Source of the DNA: a virus
IMG/VR virus record: IMGVR_UViG_3300037193_000219
Coordinates: 1 to 29,067 of that record
Length of the DNA stretch: 29,067 nucleotides
Reading direction: 5' to 3' (one strand)
The notes beneath the pieces are model-generated. The model ran no database searches. It worked only from the letters and a program-made list of their open reading frames with translations, and was not told the origin of the DNA. The position numbers and the translations under genes are program-made. Below, piece after piece: positions 8,107 through 18,359 of this stretch. Numbering within the stretch: the first letter of the stretch is position 1; each line of letters starts with the position of its first letter.

Positions 8107-8726
8107 TCGATCCGAACGCAGTGACTACGAAGGACTCGGGGGCTCGAGCGGCCTTCGGCAACGGCGGTGTTCGCGACACTCAGGAGGGAAAGCCCAGGTT
8201 CGACCTGATCTTCCCGAAGAACGTGCCGTACGAGCATCAGCTGATCACGCGCCTGGCAGCCTTGATGGCCCGGGGCGCGGAGAAGTACGCAGATCGGAAC
8301 TGGGAGCAATTCTCGGACATCCCCGCACGTGAACGTGCTATTGCTTCGGCCCTACGGCACATCGTCCAGTGGGCCAACGGCGAGGAGGACGAGGACCACG
8401 GAGCTGCTGTGGTGTTCAACATCATGGCGGCCGACTACGTGGACGGGGTCCTGGCCAGAAACTGGAAGGCTCTGGAACCACCAGAGGCGAGGGTCGAGGA
8501 GCCTGAGCTGTGGGAGGGTGACGCAACTGTCCCGCCTCCGGACCACGTGACCGTGATGAAGCTCATGACCCCCAGCCTGGTGCAGTACAACTACCACCTG
8601 GTTCGCGCGGAGAACGGATTGTGGTACTGGGAGCGAGGGATCCCGGTAAACGAACCTCGTCGCGAAGGGGACTTCAAGTGGTTCACGATCACAGTTCCCT
8701 ACAAGTTCAAAGAGGTTCGGCCGTGA
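8103..8726 (+). CDS. DUF5664 / dATP-dGTP diphosphohydrolase N-terminal (MazG-superfamily) protein
   Basis: 207 residues from GTG 8103, which overlaps the previous stop and follows GAGGAGG; the longer frame from 8055 lacks a ribosome site. Residues 10-115 carry the DUF5664 pattern: DSGARAAFGNGGVRD, EGKPRFDLIFP, GAEKYADRNWE, then SALRHIVQWANGEEDEDHG and AAVVFNIMAADY, an all-alpha MazG-like fold with acidic metal ligands. Related phage enzymes (MazZ) hydrolyse dGTP/dATP to monophosphates. Residues 120-207 form an extra Trp- and Pro-containing domain I do not recognise. No PurZ-like gene is in the window, so 2-aminoadenine DNA is not implied. It probably acts in nucleotide-pool control. Confidence 0.8.
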   Translation: MIDPNAVTTKDSGARAAFGNGGVRDTQEGKPRFDLIFPKNVPYEHQLITRLAALMARGAEKYADRNWEQFSDIPARERAIASALRHIVQWANGEEDEDHGAAVVFNIMAADYVDGVLARNWKALEPPEARVEEPELWEGDATVPPPDHVTVMKLMTPSLVQYNYHLVRAENGLWYWERGIPVNEPRREGDFKWFTITVPYKFKEVRP

Positions 8727-9271
8727 GTTGGGGCGGGTACATACCGGGCAGCTTCATAAACGAGAAGGCGGTTCAAGCCTACGAAAAGTGGCTGGAGGAG
8801 AACCCCGTCCCGTTCGTGCGTATGAGCGAGGAGGAGAGGAACAACATACCCATGATCACCGAACCGCTCCCGAATGAGCCTTATCGTCCGGAGATCTCTG
8901 AACCCGAACCCTTCGAGACCGTTCCGCCCCGGGGCAACCTGCTGTGGGCTGCGGTTGACCTGGACGGTACACTGGCGGAGAGCGTCTGGACGCCAGACAA
9001 CCCGACCACGGACATCGGTCCGGTCAAGGTCTACCCGAACGGCAAGACGGCGAAGGACCTGGTCGACGAGCTGTACGAGGCCGGGTACAAGGTCGTGGTC
9101 CACACGTCCAGGGGTTACACCGATCTCGAGAACATCGAGCGCTGGCTGAAGCATCACGGTATTCGCTTCAGGCAGGTGGTGTGTGGTAAGCTTCTGGCAG
9201 CGATTTACATCGACGACCGGAACAAGAGCATCTGGGACGAAACCTGGGTGCCGGAGAGGGGCGAGAAGTGA
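8723..9271 (+). CDS. HAD-superfamily phosphatase
   Basis: 182 residues from the GTG that overlaps the previous stop as GTGA. After a Pro/Glu-rich N-terminal arm (1-72) comes a HAD fold: motif I AAVDLDGTLAES (nucleophile D79, acid D81), motif II VVVHTSRG (T128), a lysine in CGKLLAAIYIDDRN (K156) and motif III acidic pair D164-D165. There is no large cap insertion, so small substrates such as nucleotides or phosphorylated ends are likely. It follows the DUF5664 gene directly and may dephosphorylate its dNMP product, which is inference. Confidence 0.85.
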   Translation: MSWGGYIPGSFINEKAVQAYEKWLEENPVPFVRMSEEERNNIPMITEPLPNEPYRPEISEPEPFETVPPRGNLLWAAVDLDGTLAESVWTPDNPTTDIGPVKVYPNGKTAKDLVDELYEAGYKVVVHTSRGYTDLENIERWLKHHGIRFRQVVCGKLLAAIYIDDRNKSIWDETWVPERGEK

Positions 9272-11184: not shown

Positions 11185-11494
11185 CATCGACCTGGGTCGG
11201 GTCACCAGCAACCCGCTCACTGAGGTACGGACGGTGCTCTCTCGCGCTGAGAGTGCGCTGTCCGTGCTTCGGCACGCCAAAAACGACCCCGACCTTCGTT
11301 GGTCAGGCGGATACCTCTGGAAGCTTGACGGGGTGTGGGATGGTGCGTATCCTTGGCGTAAGACGGATGAGGAGCTGGAGGAGATCCCGCGAATCGTCCA
11401 CCCAGACCTCGACGAGATGATCGCTAGTCTTGAGGGTGTGGTGGCGAGCCTGAAGAAGTGGGAGCGCACCGGCCGACCTAGGAGGAGGAAGTAG
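11177..11494 (+). CDS. Hypothetical helical protein
   Basis: 105 residues from ATG 11177; the longer frame from 11051 lies inside the previous gene. Two helical segments (LTEVRTVLSRAESALSVLRH and LDEMIASLEGVVASLKKW) flank a Trp/Gly/Asp-rich middle (RWSGGYLWKLDGVWDGAYPW). The C-terminus is basic (RTGRPRRRK). Not recognised. It directly precedes the RNA ligase, and its TAG overlaps the ligase GTG by one base. Confidence 0.65.
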   Translation: MTDIDLGRVTSNPLTEVRTVLSRAESALSVLRHAKNDPDLRWSGGYLWKLDGVWDGAYPWRKTDEELEEIPRIVHPDLDEMIASLEGVVASLKKWERTGRPRRRK

Positions 11495-12639
11495 TGAAGC
11501 TGTTCGACCTGATCGACTACGAGCTTCTGGACGAGATGATCCGCGAAGGGTACATCCGTGAGCGACGCAGCCCGGACGGTGATCTGACGCTCTTGAACTA
11601 CACGGAGAAAGCTCAGTTCGACCGAGTGTGGAACGCGGCCACGATGAACAGTCGAGGTCTGATCTTCAAGACCGTGTTCCCGCACGAGATCGTGGCCCGG
11701 CCATTCTTCAAGTTCTTCAACTACGGCGAGGGCTTGGACTTCAGCCTGGAGGAGCCGGTCGTTGTCACGGACAAGGTCGACGGTAGCTTGGGAATCCTGT
11801 ACAAGGACAGCTCCGGCATGAACCAGATCGCCACGAGGGGTTCGTTCGAGAGCGACCAGGCGCTGCACGCCAGCCATGTCCTGAACACCAAGTACGCGGG
11901 CTTCGAGCCGAAGGAGGGCTGGACGTACCTGTTCGAGATCGTGTACCCGGAGAACCGGATCGTGGTCGACTACGGTGACACCGACGACCTCATCCTGCTC
12001 GGAGCGGTGCACATCGAAAGCGGGTCCGTATTAGGGCCTGACGTCTTCCTGGACTGGCCGGGACCCCACACCGAGGTATTCGGTTACCGGAACCTGCGCG
12101 AGGCTCTCAGCGCGCCTCTCAGGCCCGGGAAGGAGGGTCTCGTTGTCAGGTCAGTCATGGACGACGCGATGGTGAAGATCAAGCAGGAGGACTACGTCTC
12201 TCTGCACCGTGTCGTGACAGGTTTAAACGAGCGAGAGATCTGGCGTCGAGCCCGGGACCTCGACTTGTCCTACGACTACCTGAGCGGTGACGACTTCGCC
12301 TCGCAGGTCATCAACGAGATCCCGGACGAGTTGCACGACTGGGTGGTGCGTGTGTCACTGAGCCTACGGGACATGGTCTACAACAAGCTCAAGCTGGTGA
12401 ACGAGCTGTTCGCGCAGTCTCAGGTTGAGGCTATCGCCCCTGGCGACGAGTGGAAGTCTGAGAGGGGCAGGAAGAAGGCCTTCGCCCTCTGGCTGAACCG
12501 ACAGTGCGGCCTGCCTCTGCTGGCTCAGAAGAACGAGACGAACTGGCTGAAGAAGGCCATGTTCATCAAGTACGACGGGGGAGACCCCCGCCAATACCTG
12601 TGGCGTCTGGTCGAACCGAAGGGAGACGTGAAGAAGTGA
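11494..12639 (+). CDS. T4 RNA ligase 1-type (Rnl1) RNA ligase
   Basis: 381 residues (T4 Rnl1 has 374), GTG start behind GGAGGAGG. Covalent nucleotidyltransferase motifs: upstream Arg in NSRGLIF (R54) and FFKFFNYGE (K73, F75), motif I VTDKVDGSLG (AMP-accepting K94), TRGSFES (R115), motif III/IIIa YLFEIVYPENRIVVDYG (E148), motif IV EGLVVRS (E214) and motif V MVKIKQEDY (K228, K230). The order and spacing follow Rnl1, not Rnl2 or RtcB. It would join 5'-phosphate and 3'-hydroxyl RNA ends such as broken tRNA anticodon loops. A Pnkp-type end-healing enzyme lies two small genes downstream, matching the T4 pair. Family very likely; substrate inferred. Confidence 0.92.
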   Translation: MKLFDLIDYELLDEMIREGYIRERRSPDGDLTLLNYTEKAQFDRVWNAATMNSRGLIFKTVFPHEIVARPFFKFFNYGEGLDFSLEEPVVVTDKVDGSLGILYKDSSGMNQIATRGSFESDQALHASHVLNTKYAGFEPKEGWTYLFEIVYPENRIVVDYGDTDDLILLGAVHIESGSVLGPDVFLDWPGPHTEVFGYRNLREALSAPLRPGKEGLVVRSVMDDAMVKIKQEDYVSLHRVVTGLNEREIWRRARDLDLSYDYLSGDDFASQVINEIPDELHDWVVRVSLSLRDMVYNKLKLVNELFAQSQVEAIAPGDEWKSERGRKKAFALWLNRQCGLPLLAQKNETNWLKKAMFIKYDGGDPRQYLWRLVEPKGDVKK

Positions 12640-12887
12640 GCTACACCGTAGAGGAAGACCGGGAGTCGTTCAAAGACCGAGCCGACCAGGAGGTTAGGCG
12701 CGGAGACCGTATCGCCTACGCAGTTCGGGTCTTTAACGACGCTCAGCTTGTCCTGGGTACCGTGCTGAACATTCAGCGTGTGAAGCCCGAGTACGGTTGG
12801 GAGCGCTGGCGCATCACCGTTCAGGGCGACACCCGTACCAAGCCGAGCAGGCTCGAGTACCCGTCACGAATCGTGAAGCTCGGATGA
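12636..12887 (+). CDS. Small hypothetical protein between RNA ligase and kinase
   Basis: 83 residues; GTG overlaps the RNA ligase stop as GTGA. The sequence is charged with a beta-barrel look (RRGDRIAYAVRVFNDAQLVL, GTVLNIQRVKPEYGWERWRI, YPSRIVKLG), like a small SH3/KOW-type domain that could bind RNA. No named family is assigned. Its stop overlaps the next ATG by four bases, so it is coupled with the RNA-repair genes. Confidence 0.6.
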   Translation: MSYTVEEDRESFKDRADQEVRRGDRIAYAVRVFNDAQLVLGTVLNIQRVKPEYGWERWRITVQGDTRTKPSRLEYPSRIVKLG

Positions 12888-13108
12888 GTGACCCGACCCA
12901 CGAGCGGTGGTACGTGCTCGTCGATGACCTCGTCGGCGGGCACGCCATCGCGAACGTTGACAAGAAGCGCGTCTCTGAACTAGACTGGAGCAAGGGAGAG
13001 AGGACGTACGTGGACCTGATCCTGACCGAGGAGCTGGCCCATTACATCGTCGGACTCCACAACTACCTGCACAAGAGCAGATTTCCTGAGAAGTGGAAGG
13101 AGAGCTAG
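12884..13108 (+). CDS. Small hypothetical protein upstream of Pnkp
   Basis: 74 residues, ATGA overlap with the previous gene; its TAG abuts the ATG of the kinase/phosphatase. It begins with strands (ERWYVLVDDLVGGHAIANVD) and ends with a helix rich in His and Lys (LAHYIVGLHNYLHKSRFPEK). Unrecognised. A promoter-like TTGACA/TAGACT pair lies within it (12957-12986). Confidence 0.6.
   Translation: MSDPTHERWYVLVDDLVGGHAIANVDKKRVSELDWSKGERTYVDLILTEELAHYIVGLHNYLHKSRFPEKWKES
12957..12986 (+). promoter_or_regulatory. Candidate internal promoter upstream of Pnkp
   Basis: TTGACA (12957-12962, perfect -35) is followed after 18 bases by TAGACT (12981-12986, four of six to TATAAT and of the TAnnnT type). 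The kinase/phosphatase gene starts 122 bases downstream. The site is inside a coding region and may be chance; it would let the repair kinase be made separately. Confidence 0.3.
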
Positions 13109-14056
13109 ATGAGTGAGCAGACTGAACTGCACATCTACCGGGGGATTCAGGGGTCGGGCAAGACCACCCTGGCGAAGACTCTCGCGCTGCTGGACGGTGG
13201 TCGGGTCGTTGGCCGGGACCACATCCGGCGCATGCTGGGTTTCGAGGGGCTCGGCACCAAGAAGCAGGAGGACGAGGTCACCCAGATCCAGACCCGTCTG
13301 ATCCACGGTGGCCTGCGCGCCGGACAGAACGTGCACGTGGACGACATGAACCTGAAGGCCGTGTACGTCAAGCGGCTGATGGGCATCGCCGAGTACTTCG
13401 ACGCTCGGGTCGTGTGGCACGACCTGGCTCGGGTTCCGCTCGAGACCTGCCTGGCCCGCAACGCTGAGCGATCAGTAGGCAGGCTCAACCAGGACGTGAT
13501 CAAGAAGAACTGGGAGCGGTTCATCAAGCCGTTGAACGGCGGCACCTTGCCGATCCCGGAGAAGCCGGAGTTCGACACCAAGTACCTGCCGTTCGAGCCG
13601 TACAAGGCACCCGAAGGTGTGGTCCGGAACGCCGTCCTCATCGATATCGACGGGACCGTGGCCCTGCACGGTACCCCTGGGAACCCCGAGTCCATCCGTA
13701 AGCATCACGACTACGATAAGGTCTGGATGGACGCTCCGAACTACCCGGTCATCAGAGCGGTAAGGTCCATGATCCACGATGGGTACTACCCCATCTTCGT
13801 GTCTGGCCGACCTGATTCTTGCCGCGATGACACCGCTCGATGGATCAACCGGCATGTGAGCACGGCACCCCGCAAGCTGTTCATGCGTCGGACCGGGGAC
13901 CACCGGCCGGACTACCTGGTCAAGTACGAGCTGTTCAACGAGCACGTCAGGGACAACTACTTCGTAGTCGCGGCCTTCGACGACAGGGACCAGGTCGTCA
14001 ACATGTACCGCGAGATCGGGATCACGGTCTTCCAGGTCGCACCGGGGAACTTCTGA
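13109..14056 (+). CDS. T4 Pnkp-type polynucleotide 5'-kinase / 3'-phosphatase
   Basis: 315 residues (T4 Pnkp has 301), with the same two-domain order. Kinase: P-loop RGIQGSGKTT (K18, T19), catalytic VGRDHIRRM (D37, R40) and a lid-like ARNAERSVG (about 116-124). Phosphatase (HAD/DxD): VLIDIDGTVALHG (D179, D181), IFVSGRPDSCRDDTARW (229-245), RKLFMRRTGDHRPDYLVK (255-272) and AAFDDRDQVVNMYRE (288-302). Such enzymes remove 2',3'-cyclic phosphate and add a 5'-phosphate, producing the ends that the nearby Rnl1 ligase seals. All key residues appear intact. It starts directly after the preceding TAG and its stop overlaps the next ATG. Confidence 0.93.
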   Translation: MSEQTELHIYRGIQGSGKTTLAKTLALLDGGRVVGRDHIRRMLGFEGLGTKKQEDEVTQIQTRLIHGGLRAGQNVHVDDMNLKAVYVKRLMGIAEYFDARVVWHDLARVPLETCLARNAERSVGRLNQDVIKKNWERFIKPLNGGTLPIPEKPEFDTKYLPFEPYKAPEGVVRNAVLIDIDGTVALHGTPGNPESIRKHHDYDKVWMDAPNYPVIRAVRSMIHDGYYPIFVSGRPDSCRDDTARWINRHVSTAPRKLFMRRTGDHRPDYLVKYELFNEHVRDNYFVVAAFDDRDQVVNMYREIGITVFQVAPGNF

Positions 14057-14557: not shown

Positions 14558-14770
14558 TCACTTGTAGCGGTAACCCTGCTTCATGCCGCAGATCGTGGCC
14601 TGCAGGATGCACTTCTCGCCGTGCGTGTGCTCGGTCTTACCGCACACGTTCGAACCCCTCTTCCAGCAAGAGTTCGAGTGGCTGTGCTCCACTGAACCGC
14701 ACACCAGCCTACGGCTGAAGCACGACTGGTTGTGATAATGGACCGTGCCAAGATCCTCGCTCTTTGCCAT
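14558..14770 (-). CDS. Cys/His-rich repeat protein (three HxHxxxC units)
   Basis: 70 residues, ATG preceded by GAGGAGGG on the - strand; last gene of the late block. Three similar units are visible: VHYHNQSCF, EHSHSNSCW and EHTHGEKCI, the last two each preceded by VCG (LVCGSVEHSHSNSCW, NVCGKTEHTHGEKC). The pattern C-G-x-x-E-H-x-H-x(3)-C resembles CGxEEHTHxxxC repeats that I recall from Gram-positive surface proteins. Evenly spaced Cys and His imply metal binding. No signal peptide or membrane segment is seen. I do not know a function. Confidence 0.75.
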   Translation of the reverse strand: MAKSEDLGTVHYHNQSCFSRRLVCGSVEHSHSNSCWKRGSNVCGKTEHTHGEKCILQATICGMKQGYRYK

Positions 14771-16138: not shown

Positions 16139-16915
16139 TCATCCGGACGAACAAGGGACGTCCAGGATCACATCGTGGGTCTGTTCGGTACCGACCCCCG
16201 AAGGGTCGTACACGTGAAAGGTGATCGTGCATTGCAATGGTGTCGGCCCAGAGGCCTGGGTTATGGCCACCACGCTCGCACCATCAACACCATCTGCTCC
16301 GTCCTCCCCGTCCTTACCTGCGGGTCCGACATCACCCATGCAGGGTTGTGAAGCCTGCGAGCAGTAAGCCGCTACAGCCTCCGCGATCGTGGCCGGAGGG
16401 GTAGGAGGCGCGTCTTGGCCCCTAGGACCCTCTGTGCCAGGCTGTCCCTGCTCCCCGGGCTTACCAGTCTCACCCGGCTTACCAGGCTCTCCAGGACGCC
16501 CCTGGGTGCCCTTAAAGCGTGGGTCTGACCTGATGTCCTCAAGCACGATGGCCGAGGCCGCAGCAGCCAGCGCCTGGACGTCGACCTCCTGGCCCGGAGC
16601 GGGCAGAGGGATCTCAGGCAGTCCGGCCTCAACGCGGAGCTTGTTCGCCTCGCGCAGATCCTTGATGTCTTCCTCATTCACCGTGGCCCGAGCAGTGATT
16701 TTGGCGATGTCCTCGGAGTTGTTCCCCGATTCGATGGAGTTCCAGGTCGACCAGGCCATGGACAAGAGGGCGATGATCAAAGAAACGACCACCACGATCT
16801 GGTTCTTCCGGTCGACCCGGCGCTCAATCTTCTCAACCTTGGGTACCTGCTCGACCTCGACTAATGCCGCGTCGAGATTAGCCAGAGGCTCCCCGTTGCC
16901 TCTTGAGGTAGTCAT
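16139..16915 (-). CDS. Membrane-anchored collagen-like protein
   Basis: 258 residues from the ATG at 16915 (MTTSRGNGEP), 38 bases inside the upstream gene; the longer frame from 16987 is less likely. A charged N-terminal region (1-38) precedes one membrane segment (39-58, IVVVVSLIIALLSMAWSTW), then a helical linker (65-130). Eleven uninterrupted Gly-X-Y triplets (136-168, rich in GKP, GEP and GQP) follow. After a spacer with two Cys comes a second run of six triplets (194-211) and a C-terminal beta-like domain with Cys229 and Cys255. This predicts a trimeric stalk outside the membrane. It lies between holin-like genes and the endolysin, so a link to lysis or cell-surface change is possible but unproven. 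Confidence 0.82.
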   Translation of the reverse strand: MTTSRGNGEPLANLDAALVEVEQVPKVEKIERRVDRKNQIVVVVSLIIALLSMAWSTWNSIESGNNSEDIAKITARATVNEEDIKDLREANKLRVEAGLPEIPLPAPGQEVDVQALAAAASAIVLEDIRSDPRFKGTQGRPGEPGKPGETGKPGEQGQPGTEGPRGQDAPPTPPATIAEAVAAYCSQASQPCMGDVGPAGKDGEDGADGVDGASVVAITQASGPTPLQCTITFHVYDPSGVGTEQTHDVILDVPCSSG

Positions 16916-17285
16916 TCTCCGTCTCCAGTTCTCGTACTCGATCGTCGAGCTTCTCGATCTGCTTCTCACGAGCCTCGATCCGAGCACGAAGCTCTGCCGT
17001 CTCAGCTGCGTGCTCCACCTTCATGGCAGCGATTTCAGCCCTCATGGCATCCATCTGCTCACGCACCAGCTTGACCGCCTCACGTGCCGCAGCCACGGCA
17101 CCAACCTCTCCTTCGAGATCTGCCTTCCGATCTTCGCGCTTCTCCTTGCGGCTGTCTATCCAGACCTTGAACAAGAATCCGAGTAGACCAACCGCAGCGG
17201 CTAACGGTCCCGAAGTACCTAGGAACTGAGCCCAAGAGAAAGGCTGCGCCTCCACAGTCTGCTGTAGCAGCAGGGTCCACGTCAT
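16878..17285 (-). CDS. Holin-like single-span membrane protein with coiled coil
   Basis: 135 residues, ATGA overlap with the upstream gene. One hydrophobic segment (about 22-43, LGTSGPLAAAVGLLGFLF) is followed by a highly charged region (DSRKEKREDRKADLE) and a long coiled coil (70-130, VEHAAETAELRARIEAREKQ). The N-terminus is short and probably outside. Phages of actinobacteria often carry a second small membrane protein of this kind beside the holin; a holin or holin-regulator role is inferred from position only. Confidence 0.7.
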   Translation of the reverse strand: MTWTLLLQQTVEAQPFSWAQFLGTSGPLAAAVGLLGFLFKVWIDSRKEKREDRKADLEGEVGAVAAAREAVKLVREQMDAMRAEIAAMKVEHAAETAELRARIEAREKQIEKLDDRVRELETENDYLKRQRGASG

Positions 17286-17705: not shown

Positions 17706-18359
17706 TCACATCACCGGCAAGTGGTACTTACTCCACCCATTGGCCTTGACCTGAGCGAAGTAATTCACGGATTGGAATCCGATTCCGTACATCCCCGCCA
17801 TCGGGTCGACCCGACCGTACTCGTCGAGAGCTAGGTGAGGCTGGGTGTTGTCCGGAACTGTATCGGTGCTGATCGCGATCCCTGTCGGGAACGAGCTGAT
17901 CAGCCATGGCTCGATGTAGCACCTGAGATTGTCCACGAGACCGTCCTGCAGCGCCTTGCGCGCGGCGAGGCCCGAGTTGATGTGGTCCTGGTGCCTACCG
18001 CCGTAAGTCAGATGGCTGTAGGCCTTCAACCACGTACCCGGGTGGTCCTCCGCGAAGTCCTGGATGGCGTCGTAAGCCACCTGGACTGAGAGTTGGCCGT
18101 CGGGCGGCGAGACTCTTGCGAAGTGGATGTTCTCGTATGGGATACCGAGCTGACGACTCGCTCGAATGAATTCGTCGTCACGTGCCCGACCGAACTTAGG
18201 CCTCGAGAGACCCGAGCCAGGCTGTGCAGCCGACTCAACACCGCCGCAATGCAGCAGAACGTGAACGTCGTGTCCCGCCTGCACGTGCTTGTAGATGGCG
18301 TAGGCCCCGTAAAGGTCCGAGTCATCCTGGTGCGGCGATGTGAAGAGAATGGTTGCCAC
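17706..18359 (-). CDS. PIG-L/LmbE-family deacetylase-like protein
   Basis: 217 residues. The N-terminal strand and motif ILFTSPHQDDSDLYGA matches the AHPDDE motif of the family (zinc ligands H10 and D13, base D12). A second site, YGGRHQDHINSG (H123, D125, H126), matches the HPDH motif that supplies the third zinc ligand. In both motifs the usual Pro is Gln. Family members (MshB, LmbE, PIG-L) remove acetyl groups from N-acetylglucosamine-type substrates. It lies between a fibre-like gene and the holin, so it may act on host surface glycans or be made late for another use. No signal peptide is seen. Family likely; target unknown. Confidence 0.85.
   Translation of the reverse strand: MATILFTSPHQDDSDLYGAYAIYKHVQAGHDVHVLLHCGGVESAAQPGSGLSRPKFGRARDDEFIRASRQLGIPYENIHFARVSPPDGQLSVQVAYDAIQDFAEDHPGTWLKAYSHLTYGGRHQDHINSGLAARKALQDGLVDNLRCYIEPWLISSFPTGIAISTDTVPDNTQPHLALDEYGRVDPMAGMYGIGFQSVNYFAQVKANGWSKYHLPVM

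Follow-up and report, generated by a model that had tools for sequence, protein, structure and literature searches.

The window analysed here, a 29 kb fragment of virus record IMGVR_UViG_3300037193_000219 (positions 1 to 29,067), encodes an Rnl1-type ATP-dependent RNA ligase and a polynucleotide 5'-kinase/3'-phosphatase. The two enzymes probably form a phage RNA-repair module that heals and seals RNA cut by host defence RNases, the cut RNA probably being tRNA; we put the probability of this reading at roughly 80%. It is based on family and fold matches, intact catalytic residues, the linkage of the two enzymes, the tRNA arrays of relatives and published proposals. Against it stand a ligase in which the tRNA-specificity domain of T4 is not recognisable, and the absence of tRNA genes from the 29-kb window, which is itself a fragment of a record. 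The pair as such has been documented before, in many related phages, and the window represents one more lineage.

The pair lies at positions 11494–14056 of the plus strand, with open reading frames as given in the first-pass annotation. The ligase gene (11494–12639, 381 aa, GTG start) is followed by small gene 1 (12636–12887, 83 aa), small gene 2 (12884–13108, 74 aa) and the kinase/phosphatase gene (13109–14056, 315 aa, ATG start), all on the plus strand. The coupling by overlaps that had been described for the small genes is present: a GTGA overlap (12636–12639) joins the ligase gene to small gene 1 and an ATGA overlap (12884–12887) joins the two small genes, while the TAG of small gene 2 abuts the ATG of the kinase gene (13106–13111). 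The four coupled genes thus have the operon-like layout expected of a single transcription unit. The window as a whole has a tailed-phage layout: the replication genes are on the plus strand, and beyond 14.5 kb the minus strand carries the tail and lysis genes.

Several minus-strand genes were recorded in passing. Where the two gene arms meet, a 70-aa open reading frame (14558–14770) carries repeated Cys/His units (VCG..EHxHxxxC) and has no PHROG match and no Pfam match above the cut-off. The gene at 16139–16987, next to the endolysin, encodes collagen-like repeats (PF01391) and a hydrophobic stretch, and a PIG-L type deacetylase (17706–18359; PF02585, 42 bits), which perhaps acts on cell-surface sugars, lies between the tail and lysis genes.

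The ligase matches the Pfam family RNA_lig_T4_1 (PF09511) with 45.9 bits (cut-off 28.3), PHROG 562 with an E-value of 8e-64 and, by sequence, the solved structures of T4 Rnl1 with an E-value of 2e-11. An AlphaFold model (mean pLDDT 84), for which nine related sequences were used, resembles T4 Rnl1 most closely among solved structures (Z-score of 21 over 226 residues), with the fungal tRNA ligase Trl1 second (Z-score of 20). The nucleotidyltransferase domain comprises approximately residues 1–236, and within it K94, E148, E214, K228 and K230 align with T4 K99, E159, E227, K240 and K242, corresponding to the KxDG lysine and motifs III, IV and V; R54, K73 and D96-G97-S98 are also kept in the alignment with T4. 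With this domain and these motifs the protein belongs to the Rnl1 family. A DNA-ligase identity was considered and rejected, as profile searches matched RNA ligase families only.

The one qualification to the earlier statement that all motifs are kept concerns T4 K119, a residue that is important in T4 and that is R115 in the window ligase. Of the 12 non-T4 ligases in the alignment, 11, with the window ligase among them, have arginine at this position, and one distant viral sequence has glycine; the replacement is therefore a lineage-wide substitution rather than damage.

PHROG 562 carries a double name, RNA ligase and tail fibre attachment catalyst, in line with the annotation of T4 gp63, and on that basis the ligase might serve chiefly in virion assembly, with the kinase a separate nucleic-acid end-processing enzyme. 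We consider this scarcely credible: the ligase gene is part of the early/replication arm, whose strand is opposite to that of the tail genes at 14.7–29 kb, and in many phages the ligase adjoins its kinase partner.

The C-terminal part of the ligase (approximately residues 236–381; positions 12199–12636, plus strand) is a domain that is predicted to be all-helical and is conserved among actinophage ligases. The profile alignment of the window ligase with T4 ends near residue 246, and in a sequence-profile test the Pfam T4_Rnl1_C family was not matched by the window ligase or by six relatives, even at an E-value of 5, while T4 RnlA scores 135 bits. An alignment of this domain, made from the window and from viral contig sequences of the corresponding stretch, found it in each of the five named actinophage records that were tested (E-values from 2.5e-23 to 4.3e-34), whereas T4 gave no match. 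A fold search with the domain alone gave top Z-scores of at most 4.3, which for helical proteins may be due to chance, and T4 Rnl1 was not among the matches listed; a distant common origin of the actinophage-type and T4 domains is possible, and we do not put the domain forward as a new fold.

The C-terminal domain of T4 Rnl1 is credited with tRNA specificity. Since T4_Rnl1_C was not detected, the substrate and tRNA specificity of T4 cannot be transferred to the window ligase; the missing match limits the claim of a T4-like specificity, not the family membership of the catalytic domain. The description of the pair as complete and T4-style accordingly holds for the catalytic domain of the ligase and for the kinase/phosphatase and is overstated for the C-terminal domain. 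A broader proposal, that actinophage Rnl1 ligases have a C-terminal domain of their own, unrelated to that of T4, which directs the shared repair chemistry to other broken RNAs (such as tRNAs or rRNA that toxin RNases of actinobacteria have cleaved), is one that we regard as doubtful.

The kinase/phosphatase keeps the domain order of T4 Pnkp, in which the P-loop kinase precedes the HAD phosphatase. It matches AAA_33 (E-value of 1e-14) and HAD_PNKP (PF25109; E-value of 2.7e-43) in Pfam, PHROG 505 (E-value of 1.9e-74) and T4 Pnkp (PDB entry 1ltq; E-value of 1.1e-17), and the nearest solved sequence is that of bacterial Pnkp1 (PDB entry 4xrp). The N-terminal P-loop kinase is identified by K18, D37, R40 and R121, equivalent to T4 K15, D35, R38 and R126, and the HAD phosphatase by D179, D181, R197, R234, K272, D291 and D292, equivalent to T4 D165, D167, R176, R213, K258, D277 and D278. 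All nine residues that the first-pass annotation had named in the two enzymes thus align with their T4 counterparts. Approximately 2.2 kb upstream of the ligase gene, the window encodes a separate HAD-type phosphatase (8723–9271, plus strand) that shows weak similarity to the phosphatase portion of polynucleotide kinases (phrog_415; E-value of 3.8e-8) and is kept in the syntenic contig L007; it might act as a further phosphatase of 3' ends or of nucleotides.

Relatives of the ligase were found in 1,598 phage records, 126 of which cover at least 80% of its length, and relatives of the kinase in 2,898 phage records. The best relatives of both enzymes belong to Streptomyces and Arthrobacter phages, in which the pair is annotated, and identities to the listed Streptomyces, Arthrobacter and Gordonia phages are 39–49% for the ligase and 37–40% for the kinase. 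The two genes are adjacent or at most approximately 1.5 kb apart in all five annotated actinophage loci inspected, and adjacent in contig L007, which is syntenic with much of the window and has a DNA polymerase 70% identical to that of the window; three viral records of 111–113 kb hold both enzymes far apart. In Streptomyces phages, and likewise in the related viral contigs L008, L010 and L012, the ligase gene is located within or next to tRNA arrays. In the latter three it is directly downstream of arrays of 14–18 tRNA genes, with the kinase gene approximately 40 kb away. No tRNA genes were seen in the L007 stretch or in the Arthrobacter stretches.

A search for near-identical phage DNA found none. 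The nearest relatives of the window DNA polymerase are those of Mycobacterium abscessus prophages (61% identity), which is consistent with an actinobacterial host. The RNA_lig_T4_1 profile found no match in the two M. abscessus prophage records searched, in keeping with gain or loss of the module by mosaic exchange.

The two small genes match no Pfam or PHROG family and have no relative in viral contigs. Weak relatives of small gene 1 adjoin an HNH endonuclease in Arthrobacter Liebevirus phages, and small gene 2 has one weak relative, beside the DNA polymerase I of Streptomyces phage Success. The overlapping start and stop codons tie these genes to the enzymes and invite the view that their products are accessory subunits of a repair complex, or accessory RNA-binding factors as had been suggested. 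This is highly improbable: contig L007 has the enzymes adjacent and no homologue of either small gene, and the five annotated actinophage loci have either no genes or unrelated ones between ligase and kinase, so that the gene-order comparison proposed earlier shows no conservation of the small genes. Given their absence from syntenic L007 and the unrelated surroundings of their weak relatives, we judge the small genes to be co-transcribed by position, yet not part of the repair module; they resemble ordinary mosaic small genes. A PADLOC search of the enzymes and the small genes matched no defence-system family.

The chemistry of the two enzyme families, in which phosphatase and kinase heal the ends and the ligase seals them, is well established. 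In the module proposed here, an RNase of the host or of a competing element would cut an essential RNA, leaving a 2',3'-cyclic phosphate and a 5'-OH. The HAD domain of the Pnkp-type enzyme would remove the 3' phosphate and its P-loop domain would phosphorylate the 5' end, after which the Rnl1-type ligase would adenylate itself on K94, activate the 5'-phosphate and seal the break, allowing translation and phage growth to continue. The likeliest substrate would be a tRNA cut in the anticodon loop. Breaks with a 2',3'-cyclic phosphate and a 5'-OH, as made by PrrC, MazF, colicin-type and HEPN RNases, need a healing enzyme, whereas the ends left by VapC are directly joinable and need none. If both enzymes act on the same breaks, the former RNases would therefore be likelier targets than VapC.

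The same end chemistry also fits a more general repair of RNAs other than tRNA, such as mRNA or rRNA that MazF-like enzymes or HEPN RNases, Cas13 among them, have cleaved; the C-terminal domain, which is common to the actinophage clade and unmatched to T4_Rnl1_C, would then confer a specificity unlike that of T4. MazF3 and MazF9 gave phage protection in M. smegmatis (PMC13273310). We nevertheless hold such a general role to be unlikely, given that tRNA arrays adjoin the ligase in several relatives and that published proposals favour tRNA repair.

Repair of tRNA as a counter to host defence has its precedent in the T4 pair and PrrC (PMC2610378), and mycobacterial VapC and MazF toxins have been reported to protect against phage D29 (PMC13273310). 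Of the mycobacteriophages known at the time, those of clusters E, J and L alone had Pnk and RNA ligase, and one or more tRNAs accompanied the two in every case; the enzymes were described as having apparently co-evolved, with repair against host defence proposed as their role (PMC3706429). An anti-defence proposal for the mycobacteriophage pair was also made in the announcement of CrystalP (PMC5511906), and the use against RNA-cutting defences suggested for the window pair from its sequence agrees with both. Microbacterium cluster ED phages have the pair as well and drew the same proposal of anti-defence repair (PMC7302621). A 2004 biochemical study, as cited in the two mycobacteriophage papers (PMC3706429, PMC5511906), dealt with Pnkp of mycobacteriophages Omega and Cjw1, and in a 2026 screen the ligase and kinase of LeBron inhibited growth when overproduced (PMC13148394).

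Compared with T4 Pnkp (PseT) and RNA ligase 1 (RnlA/gp63), the window pair is alike in enzyme families, kinase/phosphatase domain order and catalytic residues, and differs in the lack of a detected T4_Rnl1_C domain and in the arginine at the position of T4 K119. The enzyme genes are approximately 0.5 kb apart in the window and approximately 1.4 kb apart in T4, with other small genes in the reverse relative setting. The pairs of Streptomyces Stanwilliamsviridae, of Arthrobacter phages Bauer and Seahorse and of mycobacteriophage clusters E, J and L share with the window both the linkage and the common C-terminal domain; the window, however, belongs to a different phage lineage, has two lineage-specific small genes between the enzymes and shows no tRNA genes in the fragment. 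In the bacterial Pnkp1–Rnl–Hen1 complex (PDB entry 4xrp; PMC4411300), Pnkp1 resembles the window kinase/phosphatase, but the window ligase groups with Rnl1 instead, and no Hen1 methyltransferase was found among the window genes scanned.

With the window, one more lineage joins the actinophages that maintain an RNA healing-and-sealing pair, in agreement with hosts in which RNA-cutting defence is common. The point of interest is the shared, unstudied C-terminal domain of the actinophage ligases, and with it the question of which RNA these phages repair.
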